DNA from: Eubacteriales bacterium | GTDB taxonomy: Bacteria > Bacillota > Clostridia > Christensenellales > MB2-83 | Assembly: GCA_018385275.1 (NCBI GenBank) | Contig: JAHAZM010000074.1 | Span: 1-34,243, forward strand | Length of the DNA: 34,243 nucleotides | Direction: 5' to 3' | Shown: one piece after another, positions 15,606-18,174 of the stretch | How positions within the stretch are numbered: the first letter of the stretch is position 1 | Layout of the letters: the number at the start of each line of letters is the position of its first letter | The notes under the pieces: generated by a model | Databases searched by the model: none | Seen by the model: the letters and a program-made list of their open reading frames with translations, nothing else | What the model was told of the DNA's origin: nothing | Program-made: the position numbers and the translations under genes

Positions 15606-16049
15606 TCAATCGGTGAATTCCGCGGCGCGGTACGCTTCCGTGATACGCGCGATCTGTTCCTCGGCGCCGCACAGGATCACACGGGCCAGACCGTTGTCCC
15701 AACCAAAATAGAACACGGCGTCGGCGGCTTCTTTCATCCGGTCGCAGAAAAAAGCCGAGATCTCGTTCGCTTTTTTCATCGAAACGGGAAGATCCAGGAT
15801 CACGCAGGCCCGGTTGCCCTTTTTGGAACGGTCGGACAGAAAATCGAACACCGCGCTGTTTCGTTTGATCCGCAGGCCTTCTTTGACGAAAGGCTCCCGG
15901 AAAAACCGATCCAGATCTTCCGCCGAAAACCGCCATACGCCGTTTTCTTTTCCGCCGGTCAGTAGCCCCTGATTCAGATAAGTCCTCAGCGTGCGGGTGG
16001 TGAAACCCGTCATCATCGCCAACTCGTTCAACGTATAGCTGCCGTTCAT
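15606..16049 (-). CDS. MerR-like helix-turn-helix protein with unassigned C-terminal domain
   Basis: MNGSYTLNELAMMTGFTTRTLRTYLNQGLLTGG; ATG preceded by AAGGAGGAAACGAAC. Confidence 0.7.
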   Translation of the reverse strand: MNGSYTLNELAMMTGFTTRTLRTYLNQGLLTGGKENGVWRFSAEDLDRFFREPFVKEGLRIKRNSAVFDFLSDRSKKGNRACVILDLPVSMKKANEISAFFCDRMKEAADAVFYFGWDNGLARVILCGAEEQIARITEAYRAAEFTD

Positions 16050-16161
16050 GTTCGTTTCCTCCTTGCTGTGGTTGATTCTATCATAGCAGAGGTTCCTTCT
16101 GGAAGCAATATGAAATCCGGCGACTTTTTCCGCTCTGCGGGCGCGCTTTTGTCGAAATCCG

Positions 16162-16190
16162 TTGAAAGGAACGACCATATATGATATAAT
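16162..16190 (+). promoter_or_regulatory. promoter TTGAAA-N17-TATAAT upstream of the AAA+ gene
   Basis: 5/6 and 6/6 hexamers, 17-nt spacer, ~46 nt before ATG 16236. Confidence 0.6.
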
Positions 16191-16235
16191 CAATTTCAGC
16201 AACCGATCGGCACGACCGATCCGAGGGAGAAAACC

Positions 16236-18174
16236 ATGGCTCAGTTTTTAGCAAGAATATGTCTTTCCAATTCCGTTGCGACGGATAATCTCAAAAAGCT
16301 CGGCAGCATGTGGAAAGAGTGCAGCAAAGCGCTTCCGAAAGGCGCGTCGCCGGAACTGTTCAGCGAGCGATTTACTTTCGGTGCTCTGCGCATGACGGCG
16401 CGAACGGGAAAAGAATGCGTCAACATACTGGAGAACGCGTGGCGGCAGAAGTTTCCCGAAGAGAAAGAGCTTCCTCGGATCATGGTCTGCGCCGACGACG
16501 GCAGCGATCAGACGAAGCTGATGAAGAGCATCTATTCTTCCTATTACGGGATCAACGAGTATATTTCGCTTGTGACCGAACTGTACGGCGAGATCCCGCT
16601 CCTGCGGGAGCGCGGCGCCTTGAAAGCGCTGCGGATGCAGAACTACCTGTTCGCCGTCGATCAGGGCTGCGGGTTTACGACGATGCTTTCTTCGTTCGGC
16701 GACTATCTGCGCCGCATGAAAGTATACGGCGAGGACAGCGGGCGCGACAAATATACCGAGTATATCGTCGATAAGGAATCGAACGGCGAACGCGCCGACG
16801 TGAACGATATCATCGAGGCGCTTTCCGGAGAAGAGTCCATCGCTGAAAACGGCGTGATCGGGATCGATATCGGATATTTTCTCGAGGGCGAAAAAACGGA
16901 CGAGCTCAGAAGATTCCTCAAAAGACTCTATACCCTGCAGGACAAATATGTTTTTGTTTTCCGGGTGCCGTTCCTCGAAAAAAAAAGCGCTCGACAATAT
17001 CGCCGCGGCGCTTTCCGATCAGATGCTGCTGAGGACGGTGACCGTTCCGCCGCTCCACGAGTGCGCGCTGCTCGAGTATTTCTGGGACACGCTCCGCAAT
17101 CTCGGCTATATGGCCGATGTTTCCGTCATGGAGCCGTTTTTCGCGCGGATACGCGCCGAGAAGAAGGACGGACGGTTCTACGGTTTCAAAACCGTTGAAA
17201 AAATCGCGCAGGAGATGATTCTGGAAAAAGCGAAAACCGTCGCCGGGTCCAAAATGCTCGGGATGAATACGGAAGAAACCATGATCGGAGCCGACGACGT
17301 TTCCGACGCCGCCGGCAAGGAAAAGAAAGAGCAAAACGGGTACGACCAGTTGGCCGAACTCATCGGCATGGAGGAAGTCGCCAAACGCGTCAGGGAGATC
17401 GTCTCGCAGGTAAAACTGTCCCTGTCGGATCCGAAGCTCGATCGTCCTTGTATCCATATGCGGTTCCTCGGTGCGCCGGGCACGGGCAAAACGACGGTCG
17501 CCCGCATCATCGGGCAGATCTTCCGAGAGGAGGGGATTCTCCGCAAGGGAGCGTTCATCGAGTATTCGGCCCGCTCGCTCTGCGCCGAATACGTCGGGCA
17601 GACCGCGGTCAAGACGGCGTCGATCTGCCGCGATTCTTACGGCTCCGTGCTTTTCCTTGACGAAGCCTATTCGCTTTACGATAACGACATCGCCACCAAC
17701 GACTACGGCAAAGAAGCCTTGACGACGCTGATTTCCGAAATGGAAAACCATCGGGACGATATGCTGGTCATCATGGCCGGCTATACGGAGGATATGGAAA
17801 CGCTGATGAAGGGCAACGCCGGTCTGCGGAGCCGTATGCCCTATGAGATCATGTTCAAGAATTATTCGCGCAGCGAGTTGTTCGAGATCTTTATGCTGAT
17901 GGTGAGGAAGCATTTTTCCTATACCGAGGAGTTCGAAGCCGAAGCGAAGAGTTATTTTATGGCTCTTTCCGATGGTTATCTTAATTCGAAAGAGTTCGCC
18001 AACGCCCGGTTCGTCCGCAACCTTTATGAGCGCACATGGTCGAAAGGCGCGCTGCGCGCGTCGCTGTCCGGTCTGGCGCGCGTCGAACTCATCAAGGATG
18101 ATTTCATCGCGGCCAGCAGTGAAAAGGAATTCTCGGAAAAGAGGGAAACCGAGCGCGCCAAGATCGGTTTCTGA
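16236..18174 (+). CDS. CbbX/SpoVK-like AAA+ ATPase, split into two frames at an A9 run (16978-16986)
   Basis: ORF 16236-17198 reads sensibly to ...FRVPFLEKK; ORF 16948-18174 continues as ...ALDNIAAALSDQMLLRTV and contains FLGAPGTGKTTVAR (Walker A) and SVLFLDEAYSLY (Walker B). Removing one A gives one 645-aa protein. Confidence 0.8.

Follow-up and report, generated by a model that had tools for sequence, protein, structure and literature searches.

A run of nine adenines breaks the frame of a conserved tandem AAA+ ATPase gene in a clostridial draft genome, very probably through a private one-base insertion or an assembly error

In bacteria, transcriptional slippage is documented at runs of nine A, and genes that are broken at an A9 run, have homologues in a single ORF and could regain their frame through slippage have been described as 'pseudo pseudogenes' (Baranov et al. 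2005, PMC1088944). As far as it is cited there, A9 slippage in Thermus dnaX yields both shorter and longer runs. Another interrupted gene is tssM1 of Citrobacter rodentium, in which the break follows a run of eleven A, the C-terminal domain lies in another frame, and an extra A was shown by mRNA and protein (PMC4256274). Regarding the direction of slippage, homopolymer transcription errors were found to be mostly single insertions, with deletions rarely occurring in homopolymers (PMC5574713), and rescue by deletion was not observed with the E. coli RNA polymerase at the poly(A) tracts studied (PMC6260861). Furthermore, the GeneTack survey considered a frameshift as programmed when its site was conserved among at least 5 clustered homologues, while frameshift genes outside such clusters but with intact homologues were attributed to sequencing errors or recent indels (PMC3711429).

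The gene analysed here is located at positions 16236-18174 of the window, this being the whole stretch of 34,243 nt studied, which belongs to contig JAHAZM010000074.1 of the assembly GCA_018385275.1. Nine consecutive A are read directly from the sequence within this gene, and the features around them are collected in Table 1. The frame-1 ORF (16236-17198, 320 aa) comprises 250 family residues up to ...FRVPFLEKK, which are followed by 70 unrelated residues and a stop, while the +1 frame (frame 2) is open from the 5′ side of the A9 through 18174, presents a clear AAA+ domain and includes an ORF of 408 aa when read from the ATG at 16948. A seven-state coding-potential HMM trained on the same genome placed a frame change at 16979 unprompted, in agreement with the one-base break at 16978-16986 reported in a preliminary description of this DNA. 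Likewise, the 645-aa ORF that was announced there on removal of one A was recovered, its 250 + 395 residues equalling the length of the intact relative L033. The frame break is more than chance. It occurs inside the first AAA+ module, just past its fourth core strand and not at the boundary between modules, so that neither fragment holds a complete first module. Moreover, the 5′ coding part ends in the conserved FLEKK motif and can be aligned residue by residue to the corresponding N part in 78 GTDB loci.

Table 1. Positions in the window of the features around the frame break
Feature	Position	Strand	Description
5′ coding part, 250 residues	16236..16985	+	N-terminal alpha/beta domain and first half of the degenerate AAA+ module 1
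Internal ATG, out of frame, with AGGA 5′ of it	16948..16950	+	By-product of the coding sequence
A9 run	16978..16986	+	A1-A7 in relatives; downstream frame continuous if one A fewer
End of the frame-1 ORF, out of frame: 70 non-family residues, then stop	16986..17198	+	
3′ coding part, 395 residues, +1 frame	16987..18174	+	Remainder of module 1 with its lid, followed by active CbbX/SpoVK-like AAA+ module

The second module belongs to the CbbX/SpoVK group of AAA+ proteins, as previously proposed, on account of its core, its Walker A and B motifs (GAPGTGKTT and VLFLDEAY) and its lid, with PF00004 (E 1.6e-15) and AAA_lid_6 (PF17866, E 1.4e-6) both over the cut-off and TIGR02881 matching at E 5.8e-62. 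An AlphaFold2 model of L033 (pLDDT 87) displayed two AAA+ modules preceded by an N-terminal alpha/beta domain, the pair of modules aligning with Cdc48/p97 and NVL, both double-ring ATPases, over ~580 columns, and the second module having CbbX as its best structural match. When module 1 of L033 was modelled alone (pLDDT 91), it presented an AAA+ core with a helical lid and again matched CbbX first (3syk/3syl, TM about 0.6), followed by Skd3, Hda and clamp-loader subunits. At the sequence level, the module 1 profile had no match among PDB sequences, and no Pfam family found the module consistently. Its Walker motifs are lost (consensus DxGCGFTT and DISYF, with no Lys and no DE) and deviate from those of active ATPases (Walker A GxxxxGK[ST], Walker B DE). 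Since both modules are AAA+ in the model and the Walker motifs of the first are gone, the term 'tandem AAA+' of the preliminary description is right, with a dead first module. The family resembles CbbX, SpoVK and EccA, but differs from them in its tandem architecture, in a first module without Walker motifs and in missing the NCBIfam equivalog cut-offs (209/423, 179/459 and 189/467 bits for SpoVK, CbbX and EccA, respectively). CbbX remodels Rubisco and, by analogy, the present protein is probably a hexameric remodelling ATPase. A function in defence was rejected, as the matches obtained were weak and typical of any AAA+ domain. Tandem CbbX-like ATPases of this kind occur widely in Clostridia of the gut and rumen; the family has no Pfam or NCBIfam name of its own and could merit a separate study.

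Relatives were searched with the downstream part as query in 297 genomes of the same order and in a scan of GTDB genomes. Many relatives were obtained, mostly from rumen MAGs, with identities of up to 72% over this part (72% for L033 against the 3′ coding part). All 78 GTDB loci holding both sides of the junction had both parts in one frame, and the junction was likewise read in a single frame by 26 genes from the same order. The longest A run at 77 of these junctions varied from A1 to A7 (4 junctions with A1, 18 with A2, 10 with A3, 21 with A4, 15 with A5, 7 with A6 and 2 with A7), and A8 or A9 appeared in none of the 77, which answers in the negative the question, raised previously, of whether homologues keep the A run. 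Therefore, programmed slippage is excluded as a family trait from the causes listed in the preliminary description (error, mutation, phase variation and slippage), and a private indel or an error is left. Most close relatives had Glu-Lys-Lys-Ala as the junction motif, encoded in various ways (GAG AAA AAG, GAA AAG AAG, GAG AAA AAA or GAA AAA AAG); because these codons vary, the A run can be considered a by-product of the Glu-Lys-Lys motif that is not maintained. No conserved recoding signal was found at the junction, nor any other frameshift at the site equivalent to the A9 among the 78 GTDB and 26 same-order homologues. The only other broken homologue (L096:3650-3830, 72% identical) was rejected as a second example, its frame change being located elsewhere and beside an N, which points to an assembly gap.

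As the relatives all read through the junction, the break has the appearance of an ordinary mutation of one base, or of an assembly error, and not of a programmed frameshift. Moreover, of 160 columns conserved at ≥90% in 46 relatives, the window gene kept 157 near-invariant residues, both before and after the break. More would be missing from a gene that had been dead for any length of time; the break is therefore very recent, unreal or corrected in the cell. The gene is thus very probably a conserved single-ORF tandem AAA+ ATPase gene with a private insertion of one A (A8 to A9), the ancestral A8 being expected to encode Glu-Lys-Lys as GAA AAA AAA, which one additional A would convert into A9. 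Mutation or error alike, such an insertion is in all probability no control device. Programmed recoding was rejected, since the site is not conserved in homologues and the gene falls outside any cluster of the kind considered in PMC3711429. In that scheme it is a singleton, found in one genome only and with unbroken homologues, with no difference detected from the singletons of the survey; in the scheme of PMC1088944 it is at most a 'pseudo pseudogene', having nine A at the break and single-ORF homologues. Chances are about even that the extra A is a replication-slippage mutation of this strain or population. Provided that the base does exist in the DNA, a truncated 320-aa protein lacking an ATPase module would be the main product.

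The other part of this explanation, a consensus error of the draft assembly, with an intact gene in the strain and the extra A absent from its DNA, is a serious candidate that nevertheless falls short of an even chance. It is favoured by the draft state of the assembly (80 contigs, 87% complete), by the low-complexity junk that opens some contigs and denotes imperfect assembly edges, by the absence of decay in the rest of the ATPase gene and by the expectation that singletons with intact homologues are mostly sequencing errors (PMC3711429). Against it, seven A8/T8 runs within HMM-supported open ORFs were all unbroken, and the HMM scan of 859 kb gave no frame change at any other run of at least 8; the assembly therefore does not suffer from homopolymer errors in general. 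In addition, the junk at contig edges resembles short-read data, and such data seldom give consensus errors of the A8/A9 kind. A homopolymer error rate of the long-read type was not seen, as the A9 was the only one of 37 HMM candidates (frame changes with long overlaps) placed at a run of at least 8; four of the 37 were inspected and had the appearance of shadow ORFs or overlaps, not of clear frameshifts. The contig-start junk consisted of homopolymers such as T24, C9, G18 and G12 (L117:1-123 and L157:15-26), with the look of short-read edges. As a matter of caution, a lone homopolymer-broken gene of a draft genome should be checked against its relatives before recoding is proposed.

The A/T homopolymers were further analysed in the same 859 kb, which were taken as stretches and represent about half of the genome. 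In this sample, the + strand had no run of exactly nine A other than that of the window. A whole-genome search gave eleven distinct A/T runs of at least 9, and the window A9 was the only one found both inside a gene and breaking its frame, the others being intergenic or at gene or contig edges, including one in a contig-end murI fragment. Within 391 long ORFs, no A or T runs of at least 9 were found versus 8.4 + 4.1 (about 12.5) expected from synonymous codon shuffling, while runs of 6 and 7 were commoner than expected. Therefore, such long runs are selected against, via replication or transcription slippage, which suggests that slippage at them is costly in the lineage of this clostridial genome of 58% GC. 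Furthermore, none of the 41 Glu-Lys-Lys cases in the sample was written GAA AAA AAA, with AAA AAA appearing in 0/15 cases after GAA versus 12/26 after GAG (Fisher p 0.0014). In the murI (glutamate racemase) fragment (L193:28-36, genome G000, contig C16), a T9 (A9 in sense) adjoins G5, and the frame stays open through the T9 but continues with atypical residues.

It is quite unlikely that the gene is a working 'pseudo pseudogene', that is, that the A9 is real and slippage of the RNA polymerase gives some mRNA with 8 or 11 A and hence full-length ATPase. Joining the frames would need such an mRNA, or else a ribosome shift of +1 or −2. The precedent of Thermus dnaX, as cited in PMC1088944, and the six genes with 9A/9T and single-ORF homologues in that study speak in its favour, together with the undecayed downstream frame and the avoidance of runs of 9 in the genes of this genome, which indicates that such runs matter here. 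However, neither the A9 nor the split ORF is conserved in relatives, and the change required is −1 or +2, while the bacterial RNA polymerase mostly adds one base on A runs; a −1 ribosomal slip at A AAA AAA likewise lands in the wrong frame. Since slippage in Thermus dnaX goes both ways, low-level rescue is possible. This requirement of −1 or +2 separates the window gene from the 'pseudo pseudogenes' described, and also from tssM1, as the run of nine in the window gene must lose one A or gain two. An RNA stem as stimulator was rejected, because the site folded no better than shuffled sequences (z 0.5 and −0.8). A stricter form, in which the A9 is real and fixed in the lineage and the cell makes the truncated protein and the slippage-derived full-length ATPase in a set ratio, is very unlikely; if true, it would be a case of recoding specific to this lineage, even though A/T runs of 9 are otherwise purged from the genes of this genome.

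A selected switch, with the tract flipping between A8 (on) and A9 (off), is extremely unlikely. An A8/A9 tract is intrinsically mutable and the gene is intact apart from the break, both compatible with phase variation, but the relatives lack the tract, mutS and mutL are intact, and the predicted product would be a cytoplasmic ATPase and not a surface protein. A mutator background was also rejected, mutS and mutL being open. Taken together, selected slippage or a phase switch is unlikely as the origin of the break.

Finally, that two separate proteins are made, with the C-terminal ATPase initiated at ATG 16948 as the preliminary description had suggested, is barely credible: AGGA lies 5 nt upstream of this ATG, with about 9% of all ATG trinucleotides in the genome having such a 4-mer upstream, but the product would begin with out-of-frame residues, and a start there would halve module 1. 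Moreover, an ATG at the same out-of-frame place was found in 11/77 intact homologues, 5 of these with an SD-like 4-mer, where it can serve no purpose, so it arises incidentally from the coding sequence.

Regarding the gene neighbourhood, a gene for a TPR-GGDEF protein (diguanylate cyclase) or for a MORN-repeat protein was found near the ATPase gene of relatives, at nine loci each, with direct adjacency in loci such as L033:3487-5112 and L068:2347-3138, and a functional link with the ATPase is possible. The copy in the window has neither of these neighbours. A MerR-type HTH gene (15606-16202, − strand) is divergent from it and could regulate the ATPase gene.
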